Positions 10,188 to 18,683 of a stretch of DNA of 24,126 nt are shown here, in pieces. Numbering within the stretch: the first letter of the stretch is position 1; each line of letters starts with the position of its first letter. The position numbers and the translations under genes were made by a program. Below the pieces are notes generated by a model, which saw only the letters and a list, made by a program, of their open reading frames with translations, had not been told where the DNA came from and searched no databases. Source of the DNA: a virus. The stretch spans positions 1-24,126 of the IMG/VR virus record IMGVR_UViG_3300030101_004221; one strand, written 5' to 3'.

Positions 10188-10350
10188 TTAAAAACCACGT
10201 TCTTCTTGTGGCCTCCTCTTGAGTATCCTGTGTATATTGAGTATTTAATTGTTGAATTAATTCTTCCAACTGCCTTATTAACTCAGCAGACTGTTGAGCG
10301 TCATACTCTGGTCGTGGATCAGGAAATCTTTGTAAAACTAATTTAGCCAT
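10180..10350 (-). CDS. small coiled-coil protein of the structural region, 56 aa
   Basis: Gene found by hand. It begins MAKLVLQRFPDPRPEYDAQQ, followed by a Leu/Glu/Gln-rich helix (ELIRQLEELIQQLNTQYTQD) and a TWFLNG end. The N-terminal extended part plus one coiled-coil helix of about 30 residues is a layout I recall for small proteins in structural regions of many marine phages. The ATG overlaps the stop of the upstream oxygenase gene (TAATG) and the stop overlaps the next gene by eight bases. Function is unknown; a small oligomerising virion component is plausible. Confidence 0.8.
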   Translation of the reverse strand: MAKLVLQRFPDPRPEYDAQQSAELIRQLEELIQQLNTQYTQDTQEEATRRTWFLNG

Positions 10351-10847
10351 TAATTAAATATATAGAAGTTTGTGTTAAATGAAATAATAGTTTTTTTATC
10401 CATAGCTCTCTTTATTTCAGGTGAGCGATGAGGTATAAAAGCAGGAAAACTAATAATATCACCTTCTTCAAAATCCTCTTTCACATCTTTAAACTCGGTT
10501 TCACAACCCTTTGGACACTCTAAAAAATAAACATTTGAAAAATGACACTGACCATGAGTGTGCCAATTATGAAAACCCGAGGTAATATATTGTTGAAACC
10601 AAAACCCTGTTATTTCATATTTTAAACAATTTAATGATTTTGTAATTTTTTCTAAATGAGGTCTTACTATGTCAAAAAATAAATACGAATATTCCCTATG
10701 CATTTCCTTAGGTAAATTATAATCAGTATGTAGAATATTTTGAAAATCATTAATAAACGGATTATTAGGAATTAAATTTATTTTGGATAATAATTCTTGT
10801 TTAATTTGATTGTGATTATCAATTTTTGTTTTAAAAAAGTAATTCAA
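10350..10847 (-). CDS. 2-oxoglutarate/Fe(II) oxygenase-like protein, 165 aa (outlying copy)
   Basis: Resembles the 2OG-FeII_Oxy_5 type (PF13759), which hydroxylates an unknown substrate using 2-oxoglutarate, O2 and iron. The proximal site appears as His96-x-His98 in NWHTHGQ, followed by the strand FSNVYFLECP. The distal His140 lies in SFPAFIPHRSP, after the EEGDIISFP turn, and a lysine pair (151-152) sits where the 2-oxoglutarate-binding Arg is usual. The start is TTG, directly after the TAA of the 608-aa gene; the next Met is residue 49, inside the fold. It is separated from the other three oxygenases by the 608-aa virion gene. Family fairly confident, substrate unknown. Confidence 0.75.
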   Translation of the reverse strand: MNYFFKTKIDNHNQIKQELLSKINLIPNNPFINDFQNILHTDYNLPKEMHREYSYLFFDIVRPHLEKITKSLNCLKYEITGFWFQQYITSGFHNWHTHGQCHFSNVYFLECPKGCETEFKDVKEDFEEGDIISFPAFIPHRSPEIKRAMDKKTIISFNTNFYIFN

Positions 10848-12674
10848 TTATCTTCTACCATCAGGTTGTATTTCAAAACGCTGTGTTCCTAGTCTCCAAG
10901 ATGTCCCTGTGGTATTGGAAACAACATTGACTGTAAACTCTCTACCACGTCCTCTCAGGCTTACAAACTCTGTGCTATCTACAAAGCTAGTAGTTTTAAT
11001 TACACTAGTGCTATTGTTTGGATAGTTTTTAAATTCTAAATTCATGTTTAAAGTTCCCTCTTGATTTTGCACATCAGGAATAAGCTTTGAAACAAAAGAA
11101 AATTCATCACCTTGACCTATTTCAACAGAACCTGATTTAACATATGCAGTGATAGCTTCATCATCTCCGTTGTTACCCACTTCGTGTAAAAACATTTGAC
11201 TAGCTCCGTCACTAAGTCCTGATATAACTTCATTGTTGGCCGTGGTTGTTGGTAAGTAGTCCGAGGCCACTGGATTATCGTACACTTCTCTATCAATCCA
11301 AGCTGTTCTATCTAATGTTCCAATCCACCAAGTTTGTTCTAAATAATTATAAGCAACTACTGCATTAATTTGATTTGAACCTGTTCTATTATAGAACCAT
11401 AAAATTTCGTTGTATTCACCATTGTGTCCTGCAAAAGCATTCTCAGATCCTGTTTGATTAATATTATCAAATATGTATTGCTCTACTGTGCAAGGTAATT
11501 TTTTAACTGTACCGTCAAAGAGAAAGAAAGAATCTTGAGACATCCAATAAGAAACACCATTAATATCTATACCTGCATGTTGTCCTATGATGCCACAGTT
11601 TTGACCAAGTTGTCTTAAACCAAAAGTAAAAGGTGGGCCAATAAATTGCATGGAGTGTAGAGAAGTATCTGTCCAAACAAGTATTTGACCTCTCGATCTT
11701 TCTGCTGCCACGATTCGTGATCCGTCAGCAATTCTTAAAGAACCTGCTGTGTTTTCTGCTGTGGGTTGATATGTTTCAATGTCTTCTTGGTTTGAAAATC
11801 TTATAAGTAAATCATCCTGAGCATTAGTTCCACCGATAGTTGGTTGAGATCCCATTAAAAGTAAGTGTCTGTCAGGTGTAGATACTAATCCTAATCTTGA
11901 TTTAGTTGGTGCGTTTGTAATAGCTGCTGCTCTTGTTGATACACCTCCTGATGTGTCCCATTTAAAAGCTCCACCATTTAATACAACTGCAATTAAATCT
12001 TCACCAAAATTATCTAATGACCATTGTCTTGCCTCTAGTGTTACATTAGAAGCTGAGGAGGGTGTACCCCATGTGCCAGAACTCCAAGAATCTGTTCCCC
12101 AACCAAAAGCAGGTACAGAAAACTCAGGACCAATATTAATTTGATACTTTGCATTTCCTGTGCCTCCACCTCCTGAAGTTGATCCAGAGGCAGCGGAAGT
12201 CGCTGTGACCACATAGGCATTATTATTTGCTACCGAAGTTACTTCAAATTCTTTGTTCATGTCTAAACCATCAATAGCTGAAAAGGAGTCAAAGGTAACA
12301 AAGTCACCTTTTTGTGCACCGTGTGCTGTGTCAGTGACTACAACAGAAACTGTAGCATTTGTGGTAAAAGGATTGGTTAGAGCTTGTGTCTCTCTAATAG
12401 GAGTAATATCGTAGGCTAGGCCTTCTTGAATAACATATAGTTTTCTATCTGTACCCACAGCATCGTGCCTAGTTCCATCTAAAGATATCCAAGCGTGTTG
12501 ATCTCTCACCACTCCTACTAAAGTTGTAGATATGAACTTCTGCCACCCTTGAATTTTCTGTGGTGATCCTTGAAAGAAGCGCACATTATCACCATCTGTC
12601 CACTTGCCTTCACCTGTGTAATCAGTGACTTCTTTGTTAATACCGGGAGTTGGTCTAAAATTTACTAAGGGCAT
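10848..12674 (-). CDS. large virion protein, 608 aa (tail nozzle/stabilisation-protein type)
   Basis: Beta-rich protein starting MPLVNFRPTPGINKEVTDYT and then GEGKWTDGDNVRFFQGSPQK, a start I associate with tail or head-tail structural proteins of marine podoviruses, possibly equivalent to the P22 gp10 tail-nozzle family. Residues about 100-180 form an inserted domain (TAHGAQKGDFVTFDSF) ending in a Ser/Gly linker. The rest shows repeated blade-like strands (AVGTDRKLYVIQ, GEDLIAVVLNGGAFKWD, FNNIN-like loops), consistent with a propeller. It has no enzyme motif. The ATG is 18 bases after the glycosyltransferase gene and has no clear Shine-Dalgarno. The equivalence to gp10 is inference. Confidence 0.82.
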   Translation of the reverse strand: MPLVNFRPTPGINKEVTDYTGEGKWTDGDNVRFFQGSPQKIQGWQKFISTTLVGVVRDQHAWISLDGTRHDAVGTDRKLYVIQEGLAYDITPIRETQALTNPFTTNATVSVVVTDTAHGAQKGDFVTFDSFSAIDGLDMNKEFEVTSVANNNAYVVTATSAASGSTSGGGGTGNAKYQINIGPEFSVPAFGWGTDSWSSGTWGTPSSASNVTLEARQWSLDNFGEDLIAVVLNGGAFKWDTSGGVSTRAAAITNAPTKSRLGLVSTPDRHLLLMGSQPTIGGTNAQDDLLIRFSNQEDIETYQPTAENTAGSLRIADGSRIVAAERSRGQILVWTDTSLHSMQFIGPPFTFGLRQLGQNCGIIGQHAGIDINGVSYWMSQDSFFLFDGTVKKLPCTVEQYIFDNINQTGSENAFAGHNGEYNEILWFYNRTGSNQINAVVAYNYLEQTWWIGTLDRTAWIDREVYDNPVASDYLPTTTANNEVISGLSDGASQMFLHEVGNNGDDEAITAYVKSGSVEIGQGDEFSFVSKLIPDVQNQEGTLNMNLEFKNYPNNSTSVIKTTSFVDSTEFVSLRGRGREFTVNVVSNTTGTSWRLGTQRFEIQPDGRR

Positions 12675-12692
12675 AGCGTCAATATATATAAA

Positions 12693-13508
12693 TTACTCTT
12701 TTTTAGCAACTAAAGACCCGACATGACCCTTAAATGCTCTATTACCAAAATGAGTCAAAGGCATGGCTAAGTCTGCCCAAATTTGACCACCACATTCTTG
12801 CCATAAACGAGAAAAATAGTAGTCTTCAGATAGGTATCTTATTTGTTCACCCCCTTGTGGCATCTTAGTTTTGTAAGGTCCAACTGCAAATAAGTCATAA
12901 CAATTATCAGATTTATATGAACCGCCATTAACAATTTGATCTGACTCATATTTTCTTTCAGGAAACCTTTTCATCATAGTTTTAAATACATGTCTTTTAA
13001 CAAGCATCATTCCCGTTGCTGCCTCTTGTACTGGAAAGAAACCTTGCTCTCCTTTTAAATTATTAGGATTGTCAAAGTTCACATTATAACCTAACGCCTT
13101 TGCTTCTATCTCATCAGGTTGTGCGTTAGGATTTTCTTCAAAGATCTTTTTTAATTTTTCCAAATGTAAATGTTTTCTTGGATAAATCCCACAAGCTACT
13201 TCTTTATCAGCACAAAGTAACCTTTCAATATTCTGCCATGTGAAACCTATGTCCGCATCTATAAATAGTAAATGAGTTGCTACAAAGTCTTGTTGATCAA
13301 ACATCATAGATACTATTGTATTTCTAGCTCTTGTAATAAGACTTTCATTACCCATTGTTTGAATTCTGAGCTGCACATTATTAGCTACAGTCCAAGATTG
13401 TAAGTCTAACAACCCATGAAGTGTGCTTTCTGTAAGCATTCCTCCATACATAGGCATCCCTAAAAATATTTTAAAGTTTTGATCTTTGATTTCTTCTTGT
13501 TTAATCAT
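12693..13508 (-). CDS. GT-A-type glycosyltransferase, 271 aa
   Basis: Predicted nucleotide-sugar glycosyltransferase. The N-terminal strand KIFLGMPMYGG leads into a Rossmann-like half, and the metal-binding DxD appears as Asp84-Ala-Asp86 in LLFIDADIGF. Further on are CGIYPRK (106-112), an acidic Glu-Asp pair in LSEDYYFSRLW (around 228) and His253 in LTHFGN, in the order expected of GT-A enzymes that bind a divalent metal. It has no membrane anchor, so it is probably cytoplasmic. AGGAG lies close before the ATG, which overlaps the stop of the oxygenase gene upstream (ATGA). It is the last gene of the accessory cassette. The sugar donor and acceptor are unknown. Confidence 0.82.
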   Translation of the reverse strand: MIKQEEIKDQNFKIFLGMPMYGGMLTESTLHGLLDLQSWTVANNVQLRIQTMGNESLITRARNTIVSMMFDQQDFVATHLLFIDADIGFTWQNIERLLCADKEVACGIYPRKHLHLEKLKKIFEENPNAQPDEIEAKALGYNVNFDNPNNLKGEQGFFPVQEAATGMMLVKRHVFKTMMKRFPERKYESDQIVNGGSYKSDNCYDLFAVGPYKTKMPQGGEQIRYLSEDYYFSRLWQECGGQIWADLAMPLTHFGNRAFKGHVGSLVAKKE

Positions 13509-14095
13509 TTGTTCTCCTGATAAGCGTTTATATTTTCTTCATTTGTAAAGTTAAAAGCAACCGTAATTCTATCTATTTCACAATCTTCCACGGCATGATA
13601 TAGCCATGAGGGAAATAGTATTAACGTTCCTTTTTCTTCATTTATTCTTTGATTGATTTGTTCTTCAAACTTTTTACTCAATCCTTGAACATCTTCTGTT
13701 TTTGCAAATACTAAATTACCTTTACCTGGTTGAACTATTAGCACCGCAGAATAATCTGCTATTGCATGAAAGTGCAGATGAGCTTTATCTTTTTTTTCAT
13801 AAAAGTTTATCCAAGCCTCATGTGCATACCAATTATTGTACTTCCATTGTTTTGTTTTACCTATTTCTGGTAAAACCTTTTTACTTATAAAGTCAGATAA
13901 ATCTCTAATAACTTGATATCTTTTAAGACCATTCCAACCAGTTGTTTTTGCATCAACATATCTCAATCCTTTTTCCCATTGATTTTTATCATGTTCTATG
14001 TCTTTTAAAATATTATCACAAATACTATCATCAATTTTTGTGCTATACACTTCTGTTGGAAACCAATTAGTTTTTTCTACTTTAAAATCACTCAT
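13505..14095 (-). CDS. 2-oxoglutarate/Fe(II) oxygenase, 2OG-FeII_Oxy_5 type, 196 aa
   Basis: Non-haem iron dioxygenase-like protein. The N-terminus NWFPTEVYSTKIDD is the usual WFPTxVY start of this family (PF13759). The proximal metal site lies in HLHFH (His106, 108, 110), followed by a YSAVLIVQPG strand. The distal His167 is in GTLILFPSWLYHAVE, and Arg176 (DRITVAFNF) is placed to bind 2-oxoglutarate. All expected elements are present in order. It overlaps the GT9-like gene by eight bases and the GT-A gene by four, tying hydroxylation and glycosylation genes into one translated unit. The substrate is unknown. Confidence 0.88.
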   Translation of the reverse strand: MSDFKVEKTNWFPTEVYSTKIDDSICDNILKDIEHDKNQWEKGLRYVDAKTTGWNGLKRYQVIRDLSDFISKKVLPEIGKTKQWKYNNWYAHEAWINFYEKKDKAHLHFHAIADYSAVLIVQPGKGNLVFAKTEDVQGLSKKFEEQINQRINEEKGTLILFPSWLYHAVEDCEIDRITVAFNFTNEENINAYQENK

Positions 14096-14882
14096 TTATT
14101 AATTTATCTATATTACTAAATAGACTTTCTCCTTCAAAAAACATTGAGTTTGGTAGTTCAGATTGTAAATTAATATTATGTTCATATCCATATTTTTTAT
14201 AACTAGTTGTTCCCCACAATACCAAGCCTTTTTTCTTATTAAATTTATTGCAAGAAAAGTGTTGTAAACAAGAATCAATAGACACAAAAAATCTACATTT
14301 TTGAGTTAATAATAAATATTCTTTATAGCTTAAATGGTTTGAAGTTATTGTATTCTGTAAGGGTTTTTGATACAAAGCTCTAACTTCAAGAACTTTTAAA
14401 TTTTTAGAGTTAAGGTAATCGACTATCTCTTGAGCATTACTCCTACTCAAACTTTTATAAACTTGTTTATATTCATCGTGAGTGTTACCAGACCATTGAA
14501 AAAGAATTAAATTGTCATCAACATAATCATTTACATCAGTATAATCTTGCTCATTTATATAAAACTCATTTTCAAGGCTTGAGTTTGGTAAGTTAAAAAT
14601 ACTATGACAATAATCAATAATGTGTTGATTTGTTGTTAAGAACGTTTTATCAGCGTAGGGGTACATGTCCTGAATCGTATCAAAAGATTTAAAAAAATCT
14701 TTATGATTTCCAAGACGAGCAAAAAACCGTGCATCATAGATTTTAATTACATTTGGATTATTGTTAAAAATATACGGCCAAGAGGTTAAAATGCAAACCG
14801 GACTGTTAAGTTTAGTCAAAGCACTAGTTAAGGTGCAGGCATCGCCTATTCCCGCATCAATTACAATAAGTTCTTTTTTCAT
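14088..14882 (-). CDS. GT9 (heptosyltransferase)-like glycosyltransferase, 264 aa
   Basis: Resembles GT-B enzymes of family 9, which transfer ADP-heptose in lipopolysaccharide core synthesis. The N-terminal strand VIDAGIGDACTLTSAL matches the GxGD loop of the family (residues 11-14), and the C-terminal half has CRFFVSIDSCLQHFSC (about 196-211), corresponding to the (S/A)xDTGxxH donor-site motif, followed by LVLWGTTS (220-227). At 264 residues it is shorter than typical GT9 enzymes (about 320-350), so domain loss or divergence is likely. The composition is rich in Asn, Lys, Tyr and Phe. Donor may be a heptose or another sugar. Confidence 0.7.
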   Translation of the reverse strand: MKKELIVIDAGIGDACTLTSALTKLNSPVCILTSWPYIFNNNPNVIKIYDARFFARLGNHKDFFKSFDTIQDMYPYADKTFLTTNQHIIDYCHSIFNLPNSSLENEFYINEQDYTDVNDYVDDNLILFQWSGNTHDEYKQVYKSLSRSNAQEIVDYLNSKNLKVLEVRALYQKPLQNTITSNHLSYKEYLLLTQKCRFFVSIDSCLQHFSCNKFNKKKGLVLWGTTSYKKYGYEHNINLQSELPNSMFFEGESLFSNIDKLINE

Positions 14883-15577
14883 CTATAGCTTTTCTTTTGC
14901 CAAAACTTATTACGATAATTGTTCCAAAAGCTTCTAAAGTGATTAACGTTTGTCTTTCTATAAGTTTGATCATCTATTTTTTTTGTCTCATGTCTCCAAG
15001 ACTCTCTTTTAAATGGTATAATTAATACCATTGGAGATCCTGCTTCTAATGTCTCGTCGTTTTTCCAATCGGCAGTCCAATAAAAAGGAAAAAATACAGG
15101 ATACTGGTAGGTATCTGTATCAACAATGCCATCAATAATTTTGAACGGAGCGTTTCTATTAAAAGGTTGTGTAAAAATACAACTATATCCTGGAGGTGTT
15201 TTTACAATCCAAGGATTTGAAAACTTAAAAACAGCATCAATCGTTCTTCTACTATGCATAAAACCTTTACCTATTTGTTCATTAACGTGACCTTCAACTC
15301 CAAAATAAGCTAAGATGTCGTGAGGTAGATTTGGATTAAGATTAAAATGTGCCATATTTTTTTCTTGATCGTAATGAAAGCCTATATCAAAAGAAAAAGG
15401 TATAATATATCCGCAAGTTAAAGCATCCAAAACAGGAACACATTTTTTAACAGTGGCTGTTTCAAAATTTATATTAGTTTGTAATTTTTTGTAAGCTTGA
15501 GGTATAAATTGTAAAGCAGGTTTTGGTTTTAAAACTAGATCTTCATAAACAGATTCAAAAGTAATTTTTAAAGGCAT
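14879..15577 (-). CDS. DUF6065-like protein of the accessory cassette, 232 aa
   Basis: Beta-rich protein without an obvious catalytic motif. Key elements are CGYIIPFSFDIGF (residues about 85-97), FKFSNPWIVKTPPGYSC (about 137-153) and FTQPFNRNAPFKIIDGIVDT. The NPWxxKTPxGYSxxFxxPxN pattern resembles proteins I recall as DUF6065, which appear in phage and bacterial gene sets alongside oxygenases and glycosyltransferases; that family name is from memory and unchecked. The fold may be cupin-like, but no metal-binding pair is evident. It overlaps the GT9-like gene by four bases and follows the oxygenase gene by four, so it is an integral cassette member. Confidence 0.72.
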   Translation of the reverse strand: MPLKITFESVYEDLVLKPKPALQFIPQAYKKLQTNINFETATVKKCVPVLDALTCGYIIPFSFDIGFHYDQEKNMAHFNLNPNLPHDILAYFGVEGHVNEQIGKGFMHSRRTIDAVFKFSNPWIVKTPPGYSCIFTQPFNRNAPFKIIDGIVDTDTYQYPVFFPFYWTADWKNDETLEAGSPMVLIIPFKRESWRHETKKIDDQTYRKTNVNHFRSFWNNYRNKFWQKKSYR

Positions 15578-15581
15578 GCCT

Positions 15582-16169
15582 TTATTGGCCTAGAGACTTT
15601 CTTTTATCATATTTAAATTCTTTATATTCGCCCTCTTGATCTACATAATGCAAAAAGACAGTTATAAAATGATCATGTTTACAGATTTCTCTCCAATGTA
15701 TTGTTTTCATGCCTTTAAATATTAAAGCGTTGTTTGGCTTCATACTAAATTTATGATCAATCCTACACTTAACAAGTGTATCACCTTCAAAATATTTGTA
15801 ATCTGAAGAATCGTCTTTCTCACCTATAAAAATTTCGTAGGGTTGATCTGAAGGCTCACAACCTAAACATAAGGCTACAGTGTATTCACAAGATTCTCTG
15901 TCTGTATGTATTCTTAAATCCGACCCCTTATCATAAATTCTAAAATAAGAATAAGTTGGCCATAGTTTTTTTTCTAAATTTTGTTCAATAACAGGAGTGC
16001 TTAAATCCATAAGAGTTTCCATAACAGGACACCCATGCACACCTATTAAACTGCTTGCTTGAGGATCGACATTATAATTATCTAAATTTGAATACTTAAT
16101 TATGCAGTAACTATTTAAAAAATTTAACAATTGAGTGGGTAAAAAATTCTCTATAAATATTGGTTTCAT
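15582..16169 (-). CDS. 2-oxoglutarate/Fe(II) oxygenase-like protein, 195 aa
   Basis: Probable non-haem iron oxygenase. The ATG at 16169 is chosen because it forms a four-base ATGA overlap with the upstream gene; a TTG three codons earlier is less likely. The facial triad is His88-x-Asp90 in DLRIHTDRES and distal His158 in FKGMKTIHWREI. The sequence between (YTVALCLGC, then EGDTLVKC, then KPNNALIFKG) has the jelly-roll spacing of the family. The usual Arg before the last strand is not obvious: the segment before VFLHYV reads KHDHFIT, so the 2-oxoglutarate contact may be His, Lys or Arg160. Activity is therefore less certain than for its neighbours. Confidence 0.78.
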   Translation of the reverse strand: MKPIFIENFLPTQLLNFLNSYCIIKYSNLDNYNVDPQASSLIGVHGCPVMETLMDLSTPVIEQNLEKKLWPTYSYFRIYDKGSDLRIHTDRESCEYTVALCLGCEPSDQPYEIFIGEKDDSSDYKYFEGDTLVKCRIDHKFSMKPNNALIFKGMKTIHWREICKHDHFITVFLHYVDQEGEYKEFKYDKRKSLGQ

Positions 16170-16711
16170 ATTATCCAACCTATCAATGCATATCGAGTGC
16201 CTCTTGTTATTTGATTCACTTGATGAGGAAAAAGAAAATTGGAAGGAAAGATTAGAGCATCACCAACATTTTGACCTATTTGATATTCTTGTTTTGGTAA
16301 ATCAAAAACAAATTCACCACCTTCAAAGTCATTGTTGAGGCAGATTGAAATAGATATATGTCTTTGCGTGCCTACTCCCGTATCAACATGATAGGCATAC
16401 CCTGATTTATAATTATTGTTATCGTACTTTAAGAGATCTAATTGTGAAATTTTTGAAAAATTAAAATGATTATGTTTTTTGTGATAAAACTTTGCACAAT
16501 CGTGCAACTTACTTTTTACATAATTCGACACTATTTTTTCACCAAAAGTTTTGGTGTCCAAAATGTTTCTAGTCACACAGTTTCTTATTTCTTTATCTAT
16601 GCAACCCGTGCCTACTCTCGCATCAAAAAAGTTAGCATCAAAATAATCAATTATTTTTTTACATTGAATTTTTGGAATAAGCTTTTTTACTTCTAAAATG
16701 TAGTTTTGCAC
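16166..16711 (-). CDS. prolyl-4-hydroxylase-like 2OG-Fe(II) oxygenase, 181 aa
   Basis: Clear P4H/PKHD-type dioxygenase (PF13640-like). Motifs in order: GYAYHVDTG (His108-x-Asp110), HISISICLNNDFEGGEFVF (the GGEF strand typical of the family), GDALIFPSNFLFPHQV (distal His163) and RGTRYALIGWI (Arg173 for 2-oxoglutarate, ten residues after the distal His). The start is GTG: TAA lies directly before it in frame and the protein has no later Met. It begins four bases after the 150-aa structural gene and opens the cassette. Substrate may be a Pro or other residue in a protein, or a small molecule. Confidence 0.92.
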   Translation of the reverse strand: MQNYILEVKKLIPKIQCKKIIDYFDANFFDARVGTGCIDKEIRNCVTRNILDTKTFGEKIVSNYVKSKLHDCAKFYHKKHNHFNFSKISQLDLLKYDNNNYKSGYAYHVDTGVGTQRHISISICLNNDFEGGEFVFDLPKQEYQIGQNVGDALIFPSNFLFPHQVNQITRGTRYALIGWII

Positions 16712-16715
16712 TTAC

Positions 16716-17168
16716 TTAATAAGTAATACTATGACCTGATAGGTAATTGTTTCTAGCTGTATCGGCTGAACTTGTTGCTGCAGTTACAGCAGCAGAGTCA
16801 TCTTCAGCGTTTGCATCAGAATGTGCGTTATATGTTGATGTATAATTTGTATTCCAGACATCTTGAGCTTCCGCTCTGATAACTACATTGGTAGCCCATT
16901 GAGGAAAAGAGGATAAAGAATCATTTGCTCTGGTGTCCACATATTCTAATTCACCAGTATTTGTTGTAGCATCCCATTGTAGAGCATGAACACTGGCATC
17001 TATTTCTGTATGAGATCTTAAGTTAAGATAAACTTTATCATCTAAATAAACATCAGACTCAGTATCACCTGTGCCTTTAGCAGGACCATTACCATTAAGG
17101 TTTCCACCTGCATCAAAAAGAATAGTTATTCTACTTTGAACTGTTGTGTTATTTACGGTTGTTGCCAT
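16716..17168 (-). CDS. structural-region protein, 150 aa, unknown
   Basis: Polar, Asn/Asp/Thr/Ala-rich protein starting MATTVNNTTVQSRITILFDA. The centre has KVYLNLRSHTEID and VHALQWDATTNTGELEYVD, which look like beta strands. The C-terminal 50 residues are Ala/Ser/Asn-rich (NAHSDANAEDDSAAVTAATS). It has no cysteine or membrane segment. It overlaps the four-cysteine gene by 20 bases and follows the tail fibre and that gene, so a tail-fibre-associated role (subunit, chaperone or attachment) is plausible. It is the last structural gene before the accessory cassette. Confidence 0.72.
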   Translation of the reverse strand: MATTVNNTTVQSRITILFDAGGNLNGNGPAKGTGDTESDVYLDDKVYLNLRSHTEIDASVHALQWDATTNTGELEYVDTRANDSLSSFPQWATNVVIRAEAQDVWNTNYTSTYNAHSDANAEDDSAAVTAATSSADTARNNYLSGHSITY

Positions 17169-17613
17169 TTTTTTTTACCTTTTTAGTTGTTGCCTTTTTA
17201 GGCTTCTTCTTAACTTTTACCTTATTATTACTTAATTGTCTAATGGTTTCCTCTTCCAAATTTTCGTCGTTAGTATCAATAGCTTTTTGATGATTACCAA
17301 TTATTTCAAATATAGAAGAAGCCGTTGCCATGGCTTTTTGTGCATCGCCACTTTGAGCTAAAACCTTAGTCATTATATTATTTGATTGCACCATTTCATT
17401 TCTAAAAGACTCAGTAGCTGCCTGAACTCCTGCCGTTTTTGCTGAATTTTCTACAAGCAGTAAGGGAATCCAAGCTATAGAACAGCCCCATTCTTGAACG
17501 TCTAATCCTGTTTGAGGGTTTTTACCTTGAAGCATATTGTACCAAACACATTGATGTTTAATACACTTCCTATTTAAAAGAGGACACTTACCATCAGGGT
17601 CAAATATAGGCAC
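17149..17613 (-). CDS. four-cysteine protein downstream of tail fibre, 154 aa (possible metal or Fe-S site)
   Basis: The N-terminal 45 residues carry Cys10, Cys17, Cys22 and Cys44 in the contexts CPLLNRKC, KHQCVWY and EWGCSIAWIP, with NPQTGLD between. This C-x6-C-x4-C-x21-C layout with WGC is a pattern I recall in many phage proteins close to tail genes, with no agreed function. Four conserved-looking cysteines suggest a zinc or iron-sulfur site. The middle (residues about 55-105) is helical, and the C-terminus is a Lys-rich tail (KVKKKPKKATTKKVKK). The start is GTG, sharing one base with the TAG of the tail-fibre gene, so it is translationally coupled to the fibre. Confidence 0.82.
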   Translation of the reverse strand: MPIFDPDGKCPLLNRKCIKHQCVWYNMLQGKNPQTGLDVQEWGCSIAWIPLLLVENSAKTAGVQAATESFRNEMVQSNNIMTKVLAQSGDAQKAMATASSIFEIIGNHQKAIDTNDENLEEETIRQLSNNKVKVKKKPKKATTKKVKKNGNNRK

Positions 17614-18683
17614 TAGTCTTTAGCGGCTACAATCACGTTTGCAAATTTAATATTCATTGCGGGTATTGTAAGTGCGGTATCGGCAGTTGCCGCAGATGAA
17701 AGAGATGCACTAGAAACACTAAAGGGGTGAGTGTGACCTCCACCACCACCTGCATTTGCGGTAGAATCAGAAGGGTTTCTAGTTCCTGAAAAGGTACCAC
17801 CTGTTACACCAGACATTGATCCATTGTTATTAGGATTAGCCGGATTTCTAACTGTCATCGTATGCGAGTGTGATGCAATTTCTGGAGTAGATAGTGTGTG
17901 AGAACCAACACTACCTGAAACAGAAACAGAACCTGAAACAGGAATTGCTCCTGATTGTAAAGATCTACTAGCTGCAAATGTTGTTTGAAAAGTATCACTA
18001 CCACCTGTGCCTGCGCCTGTACCTGTGGTCACACGAAAAGCAGCATCGCTTAAAGCTGTTGCAGTATCTTGTGTCCAACCTGTTGGAGCTGAGGCTTGAT
18101 AGAAAACCATTTTTGTTCCTGATGCAAAAGGTTCAACTCCTGTTAAACCTGCACCACTACCTGTAAATAAAGTAGCTTGAACTTGTCCATTACTTCTAAG
18201 TGTGATGTTACCACCACCTGCAGTTAAATTTTGACCAGAAGCAATAGTTAATGCCCCCAATTTGTCAACTGCATTATACATTTTAAAATTAGCAGAACCG
18301 TCATTATAAATATGTGAGTAAGCACCTTGAGCGATTGCAATACCATTTGCTGTATGCCCTGTAGCTGCAATAGTTAAAGTTTGAGAACCAGAAGTATTAT
18401 TAAAGAAAACATATTCACCTTCTGTAGCGGGAACAAAAACAACAATGTCTCCTGTTAAAGCTCCTGTGAGTTCAATTATTTTATTAGAGGACTCAGCAGT
18501 TGGATCTGCGTCTGCAGTTGAAAGAGTAATGTTGGAAGAACCTGCTACAGATTTGGCTAAGTAGCCTCCTCCAAAAGCGTCTAAAACGTCTAAGTTATTG
18601 TTAGTTCTGGTGCCCCAGGTATTGGCGTTAGCCCCTGTCTCCATCTTCTCTAATTTAAATCTACTTGTAAATGTGCTTGCCAT
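17613..18683 (-). CDS. tail fibre with C-terminal collar-type domain, 356 aa
   Basis: Receptor-binding fibre candidate. The N-terminus (SRFKLEKMETGANANTWG, then NNNLDVLDAFGG) is the usual fibre start that attaches to the tail. The shaft (about 45-185) is beta-rich and Gly/Ser-rich. The C-terminus has KMVFYQASAPTGWTQD (191-206), a GTGGSDTFQTTF strand, HSH (272-274), a Gly run and HTH (317-319), ending in NIKFANVIVAAKD, as in phage tail-collar domains. Paired HxH motifs bind iron in T4 gp12-type fibres. AGAGG lies about seven bases before the ATG, and promoter-like boxes lie in the 50-bp gap upstream. Confidence 0.9.
   Translation of the reverse strand: MASTFTSRFKLEKMETGANANTWGTRTNNNLDVLDAFGGGYLAKSVAGSSNITLSTADADPTAESSNKIIELTGALTGDIVVFVPATEGEYVFFNNTSGSQTLTIAATGHTANGIAIAQGAYSHIYNDGSANFKMYNAVDKLGALTIASGQNLTAGGGNITLRSNGQVQATLFTGSGAGLTGVEPFASGTKMVFYQASAPTGWTQDTATALSDAAFRVTTGTGAGTGGSDTFQTTFAASRSLQSGAIPVSGSVSVSGSVGSHTLSTPEIASHSHTMTVRNPANPNNNGSMSGVTGGTFSGTRNPSDSTANAGGGGGHTHPFSVSSASLSSAATADTALTIPAMNIKFANVIVAAKD

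Follow-up and report, generated by a model that had tools for sequence, protein, structure and literature searches.

Why should a marine phage carry four putative Fe(II)/2-oxoglutarate (2OG) oxygenase genes and two glycosyltransferase-like genes among the genes of its tail? The question arises from the 24,126-base virus record IMGVR_UViG_3300030101_004221, analysed here over its whole length (the window), which comes from a marine phage whose host, inferred from its relatives, is probably a SAR11 bacterium. A sequence-only reading had placed three oxygenase genes, a GT-A-like and a GT9-like glycosyltransferase gene and a DUF6065-like gene between the tail fibre block and the gene of a 608-aa virion protein, with a fourth oxygenase gene beyond the latter, and had proposed that they form a hydroxylation-plus-glycosylation cassette. 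All of these genes are present as described and at the positions then given, and the enzyme genes all lie on the minus strand. In the order of that strand, the features are:

17613..18683, minus strand: FIB356, tail fibre-like (phrog_12796, tail fiber, 5.8e-5); candidate target
17149..17613, minus strand: orf154, fibre block; conserved Cys/His-rich N-terminus and Lys-rich tail
16716..17168, minus strand: orf150, small fibre-block protein; candidate target
16166..16711, minus strand: OX1, P4H/PKHD-type 2OG-Fe(II) oxygenase (predicted); first of a near-constant pair
15582..16178, minus strand: OX2, prolyl-hydroxylase-fold oxygenase (predicted), of a family labelled 'ferrochelatase' (phrog_2954)
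14879..15577, minus strand: DUF6065-like (phrog_7084; PF19541), with a predicted dUTPase-like beta fold
14088..14882, minus strand: GT9-like, probable glycosyltransferase; GT-B, heptosyltransferase-type
13505..14095, minus strand: OX3, 2OG-FeII_Oxy_5 type oxygenase (predicted), HxH...H...R
12693..13508, minus strand: GTA, GT-A-like probable glycosyltransferase (phrog_1574); conserved frame gene
10848..12674, minus strand: STAB608 (608 aa), virion 'stabilization' or constituent protein (phrog_3287, 1.3e-85); frame gene
10350..10847, minus strand: OX4, 2OG-FeII_Oxy_5 type oxygenase (predicted), HxH...H; beyond STAB608

Upstream of FIB356, towards the right end of the window, lie genes for small basic proteins and then the conserved tail or head-tail genes orf225, orf147b, orf230, orf147 and orf329; 3' of OX4 there are more structural genes and then an endolysin gene, and a helicase gene on the opposite strand closes the window. 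The junctions are as tight as had been claimed, with overlaps of 13 bp (OX1/OX2), 4 bp (DUF6065/GT9-like), 8 bp (GT9-like/OX3) and 4 bp (OX3/GTA) and gaps of 4 bp (orf150 to OX1, and OX2 to DUF6065); 18 bp separate GTA from STAB608, which directly abuts OX4. STAB608 shares 38–45% identity with its counterparts in Pelagibacter phage HTVC027P and in phage DSL-LC04, whose homologue is annotated as a stabilization protein; for the HTVC023P-type group the identity is 38–40%. Both the order orf225-orf147b-orf230-orf147 and the helicase end are common to the window and HTVC023P/HTVC027P. Judged by these homologous structural genes in the same order, the phage is a podovirus related to the HTVC023P-type pelagiphages. 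The N-terminal half of orf154 is very conserved (C10, C17, C22, C44, H20), ahead of its Lys-rich tail.

The oxygenase assignments were examined gene by gene. OX1 matches PF13640 (1e-12), and the solved structures matched by its profile include PKHD hydroxylases, prolyl hydroxylases and the mimivirus lysyl hydroxylase-glycosyltransferase; its best matches also include PiuC, an iron-uptake factor. OX3 matches PF13759 (5e-11), with 3bvc and 2rg4 as solved relatives, and OX4, with the same solved relatives, matches that family at 1.3e-5, 1 bit under the cut-off, and phrog_81 at 5e-22; for OX1, OX3 and OX4 alike, the PHROGs label is 2OG oxygenase. In alignments of relatives, H108xD110...H163...R173 of OX1, H108xH110...H167...R176 of OX3 and H96xH98...H140 of OX4 are invariant. 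The strict HxD iron motif occurs only in OX1 and OX2, OX3 and OX4 having an equally invariant HxH...H, and a 2OG-binding Arg at the canonical position is present in OX1 (R173) and OX3 (R176). The double-stranded beta-helix fold was seen in a model of OX2 and, for the other three, only through profile matches to solved members. By family, motif or fold, OX1 to OX4 are thus putative Fe(II)/2OG oxygenases, and the solved structures closest to OX1 and OX2 belong for the most part to protein hydroxylases. Among the loci of relatives, the pattern H-x-[DEH]...H was found in 361 of 363 open reading frames assigned as oxygenases versus 78 of 395 others, an enrichment far beyond chance.

The most solid new point concerns OX2, which has no Pfam match and falls in a PHROGs family, phrog_2954, named 'ferrochelatase'; two papers (one of them PMC9599517) treat genes of this family as the haem or iron partner of 2OG oxygenases. 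An AlphaFold model of OX2, built on an alignment of 41 relatives (pLDDT 93.8), gave Fe/2OG enzymes as the best 50 listed Foldseek matches, small-molecule oxygenases included, and a structural aligner superposed it on prolyl hydroxylases, PHD2 among them, with Z ~15.7 at 3.3 A over 166 of 198 residues, the match running throughout residues 1–192. Among the structure matches listed there was no chelatase fold, although this by itself is not enough to exclude one. H91xD93...H161 is invariant, and the longer pattern HxDR...HWR is found in all relatives as well as in the 'ferrochelatases' of S-PM2, Syn9, Mosig and HTVC033P; OX2 has no 2OG-binding Arg at the usual spacing, the invariant R80, R94 and R163 being candidate substitutes. 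The ferrochelatase family PF00762 was matched by none of the 41 family members, by none of five cultured-phage 'ferrochelatases' and in none of 19 phage records, versus 10 of 14 control genomes, while phrog_2954 was positive in 17 of the 19 phage records and in no control. The prolyl-hydroxylase fold, the invariant HxD...H and the lack of a PF00762 match speak strongly against a ferrochelatase identity for OX2, and sequence and model together make phrog_2954 a family of prolyl-hydroxylase-type oxygenases of predicted activity. OX2 matches 152 phage records, and single members are already annotated elsewhere as 2OG oxygenases. A search of bacterial genomes returned OX2 relatives in many bacteria. 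The contigs of four Pelagibacteraceae genome records (L132, L141, L145 and L146) carry similar phage blocks, not host loci, with OX2 near a tail or stabilization-like gene, linking such phages to SAR11.

A second label in cyanophages and pelagiphages, 'DNA endonuclease V', is probably wrong as well. Families so named (phrog_274 with Syn9 gp51 and gp53, at L092:4201-5908, and L003:7978-8514, L numbers denoting loci of relatives) match 2OG oxygenase profiles, and the P-SSM2 'DNA endonuclease V' shares a fold with OX2.

These assignments bear on the published interpretation of such genes (PMC9599517 and others), in which they are auxiliary metabolic genes, partnered by a ferrochelatase, that draw down 2OG or serve the metabolism of iron or nitrogen. 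Host iron transport is indeed published to rise during HTVC027P infection, but the supposed partner has a prolyl-hydroxylase fold and no match to the ferrochelatase family, and it would be odd for a metabolic supplement to comprise multiple, diverse oxygenases in each genome, all restricted to the tail block and changing along with the fibres. We therefore consider this explanation unlikely. The argument that the locus holds more oxygenases than a host-metabolism moron would need is supported by its relatives, in which the median is five per locus.

The remaining enzymes were less readily placed, and a PDB sequence search with the GTA, GT9, DUF6065 and OX2 profiles gave no meaningful match. 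GT9-like reaches PF01075 only at E 0.2 in the window, below the Pfam cut-off; its homologue in HTVC111P (gp53) scores 6e-4, 2.4 bits under the cut-off, and none of 11 relatives matched PF01075 at E 0.1 in a Pfam scan. It has a conserved IDSxLxH motif, and with PF01075 scores that stay below the cut-off we call it 'GT9-like' only. GTA has no Pfam match, but it matches phrog_1574 at 1.5e-36, is 80–92% identical in relatives and has invariant D84xD86 and SED residues; its homologues match Anp1, GT2 and GT21, all under the cut-off. Their motifs and weak homologue matches make both proteins probable glycosyltransferases. Homologues of GTA in Sinorhizobium phage phiN3 and phage ctz7E20 have replication or recombination genes (clamp or RusA) nearby, and the GTA family may have non-virion targets in other phages. 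The DUF6065-like protein is a member of its family (PF19541, 1.2e-6, 28.6 bits versus a cut-off of 26.6). Structure prediction of the cassette proteins, which the sequence-only reading had proposed as a check, supported an oxygenase in the case of OX2; the DUF6065 model (pLDDT 77.6) resembles dUTPases (Z 9.9, 2.5 A, 118 residues). Many haloarchaeal tailed viruses have relatives of DUF6065, and the one in HF1 adjoins a ribonucleotide reductase gene, a neighbour that together with the dUTPase-like fold of the model hints at nucleotide binding.

One could also envision these oxygenases and glycosyltransferases acting on phage DNA as base-hypermodification enzymes, given that the GTA homologues of some other phages have replication genes as neighbours and that thymidine hypermodification genes are published for other HTVC023P-type clades. 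However, the island sits in the tail block, its oxygenases match P4H/PKHD families or PF13759 with no TET/JBP match, and thymidylate synthase was found in none of 16 records with positive controls. HMUDK_hel was likewise found in none of the 16, with one weak match in the controls and so almost no positive control, and ADDT in none, with nothing in the controls either, so that this last result is uninformative. We regard an action on DNA as very improbable.

How constant the set is was judged from 80 IMG/VR relatives, retrieved through GTA, gene-called and classified; extra oxygenases were assigned by a profile-profile probability of at least 75 or by a PHROG match of cluster members, and the counts are thus approximate. 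A frame FIB356-orf154-orf150-OX1-OX2 ... GTA ... STAB608 recurs. Slots lie on either side of GTA, towards OX2 and towards STAB608, and again beyond STAB608, and each holds from none to several accessory genes. Among 68 loci there were 39 arrangements, and the OX2..STAB608 arrangement of the window was found in one. The 34 loci spanning the block have a median of five oxygenases (range 3–7); GT9 is present in nine of them, DUF6065 in seven and a Nol-like carbamoyltransferase in eight, and a slot of L056 holds a tryptophan halogenase. By gene content and order, the enzyme genes are accordingly a frame with swappable slots, not a fixed cassette. The fixed pathway that had been proposed is not supported by these counts: when cassette order was compared across relatives, as the sequence-only reading had suggested, the genes were found largely to occur independently of one another, and a collagen-like sequence of hydroxylation and then glycosylation is unsupported because the glycosyltransferase and the oxygenases assort independently. 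The broader idea of virion modification is plausible.

In 16 whole records (34–62 kb long), the oxygenase matches are confined to the vicinity of the tail block, and in L002 OX2 and OX1 form a natural fusion. L065 (2702-3727 and further), where the OX1-OX2 pair is inverted, and HTVC027P (42092-43753) each have an oxygenase group in the opposite orientation to the tail genes. Two slot proteins (L006:2151-2654 and L014:7331-7987) match both phrog_1644, 'minor coat protein', and the oxygenase-type phrog_274/phrog_81; they may be a virion part with an oxygenase fold, or the phrog_1644 label may be wrong.

Such variability could mean that the region is a selfish recombination hot spot beside the fibres, in which enzymes are carried along, targets vary and there is no common function. 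The 39 arrangements in 68 loci would be expected of it, as would the G+C content of the accessory genes, which in all 80 loci falls below that of the structural genes, by 0.087 on average, a deficit that fits foreign origin but may alternatively be a property of the enzymes themselves. We find a hot spot devoid of common function quite improbable, in that OX1-OX2 is near-constant with invariant iron ligands and enzymes of these classes are met again in unrelated phages.

The near-constant part of the enzyme set is the OX1-OX2 pair, which the earlier reading had overlooked, as it had the identity of the 'ferrochelatase', and it is this pair that is linked to the tail fibres. The distance matrices of OX1 and OX2 correlate with each other (r 0.94) and with those of FIB356, orf154 and orf150 (r 0.69–0.84; FIB356 0.82–0.84, orf150-OX2 0.84; Mantel p 0.0005), as compared to r 0.23–0.33 for GTA and STAB608 and about 0 (down to −0.1) for orf147, orf329, orf118 and orf83. 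Within the main clade only, the contrast is weaker but persists (r 0.33–0.53 with the fibre block versus 0.11–0.28 with GTA/STAB608). The borders are sharp despite adjacency, with r 0.22 for orf329/FIB356 on the left and 0.29 for OX2/GTA on the right. Block recombination of neighbouring genes accounts for part of the correlation between OX1-OX2 and the fibres. Of the supposed tie between the enzymes and the tail genes, the part that concerns OX1 and OX2 therefore stands, whereas GTA evolves with STAB608 and not with the oxygenases. Conserved Pro, Lys and Asn residues in the fibre-block proteins picked out no single target.

To us the most interesting point is this fibre-linked, swappable enzyme island. 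We propose, with about even confidence for and against, that it is an exchangeable post-translational modification set that acts on tail fibre or adhesin proteins and is changed together with the fibres. Under such circumstances, OX1 and OX2 would act in the late phase of expression, hydroxylating side chains of FIB356, orf154 and orf150, which are encoded just upstream; further, exchangeable marks would come from the variable enzymes (additional oxygenases and GT9, or a carbamoyltransferase or halogenase in relatives); the conserved GTA could carry out a glycosylation that stays constant, with a core virion protein perhaps as its substrate; and a joint exchange of enzymes and fibres would alter receptor binding or conceal the adhesin. 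By analogy, carbamoyltransferase and halogenase chemistry would suit decoration. We favour tail decoration because OX1/OX2 distances track the fibre block, all oxygenases lie near the tail block and relatives sit beside tail genes; counted against it are block co-inheritance, the position of some cyanophage 2OG genes and of GTA homologues near replication genes, the small-molecule enzymes among the fold relatives and the match to PiuC.

The same enzymes might instead remodel LPS or other glycans on the surface of the infected host and so exclude superinfection, GT9 being a heptosyltransferase family and glycosyltransferases of pelagimyophage host-recognition islands having been published in that sense. 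It is not obvious, though, what four or more protein-hydroxylase-like enzymes in one phage would do to LPS, and OX1-OX2 track the phage's own fibres, so this reading seems doubtful.

Modification of tail proteins would not be without parallels. OX2 relatives and other 2OG genes adjoin tail fibre or tail genes, in other gene orders, in HTVC033P, Mosig (between the tail fibre and neck genes), HTVC023P and 023Pt_psg01, and the GT9 homologue of HTVC111P lies directly behind the tail fibre gene. In Syn10, a tryptophan halogenase gene is found ~8 kb from the OX2 relative, with genes similar to the Syn9 2OG genes between them; VirX1, a halogenase from Syn10, accepts large substrates. During experimental evolution of S-TIM4, an oxygenase gene directly before the tail fibre gene mutated in the course of host adaptation, and its authors read it as a nutrient gene. 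In the HTVC023P-type pelagiphages, members of the same enzyme families lie between the tail genes and that for the stabilization protein (PMC9599517), published as auxiliary metabolic genes with a ferrochelatase, whereas here the 'ferrochelatase' is assigned as an oxygenase; added here are the finding that OX1-OX2 follow the fibres and a map of the slots with GT9, DUF6065 and carbamoyltransferase. The variable host-recognition region of cyanophages and pelagimyophages (Syn9, S-PM2, Mosig) likewise holds OX2 relatives and 2OG, 'DNA endonuclease V' and halogenase genes, but these phages are myoviruses with another gene order, and their oxygenases were published as nitrogen metabolism or DNA repair. 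Mimivirus L230, a procollagen lysyl hydroxylase and glycosyltransferase like LH3, joins a viral oxygenase of the same superfamily to glycosylation (6ax6, OX1 profile E 0.002), but as one bifunctional protein acting on collagen; here the genes are separate, no collagen-like target was found, and the glycosyltransferase is unlinked to particular oxygenases.

Mycobacteriophages encode glycosyltransferases that modify virion proteins; no hydroxylases are known to take part in that glycosylation. Full-text literature searches found no study of phage virion hydroxylation. More tentatively, and with somewhat less than even confidence, we suggest that an exchangeable system of tail decoration is common to the marine podoviruses and myoviruses that infect SAR11 and cyanobacteria. 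In it, a near-constant hydroxylase pair and swappable hydroxylases and glycosyl-, carbamoyl- and halogen-transferring enzymes would modify the adhesin proteins and be exchanged along with them, so varying host binding. The relabelling of the 'ferrochelatase' stands on its own and touches published claims on phage haem and iron metabolism. If tail proteins are decorated by exchangeable enzymes, host range would be set by chemistry as well as by fibre sequence, and genes counted in ocean surveys as helpers of host metabolism (2OG oxygenase, 'ferrochelatase') would be virion-maturation genes.
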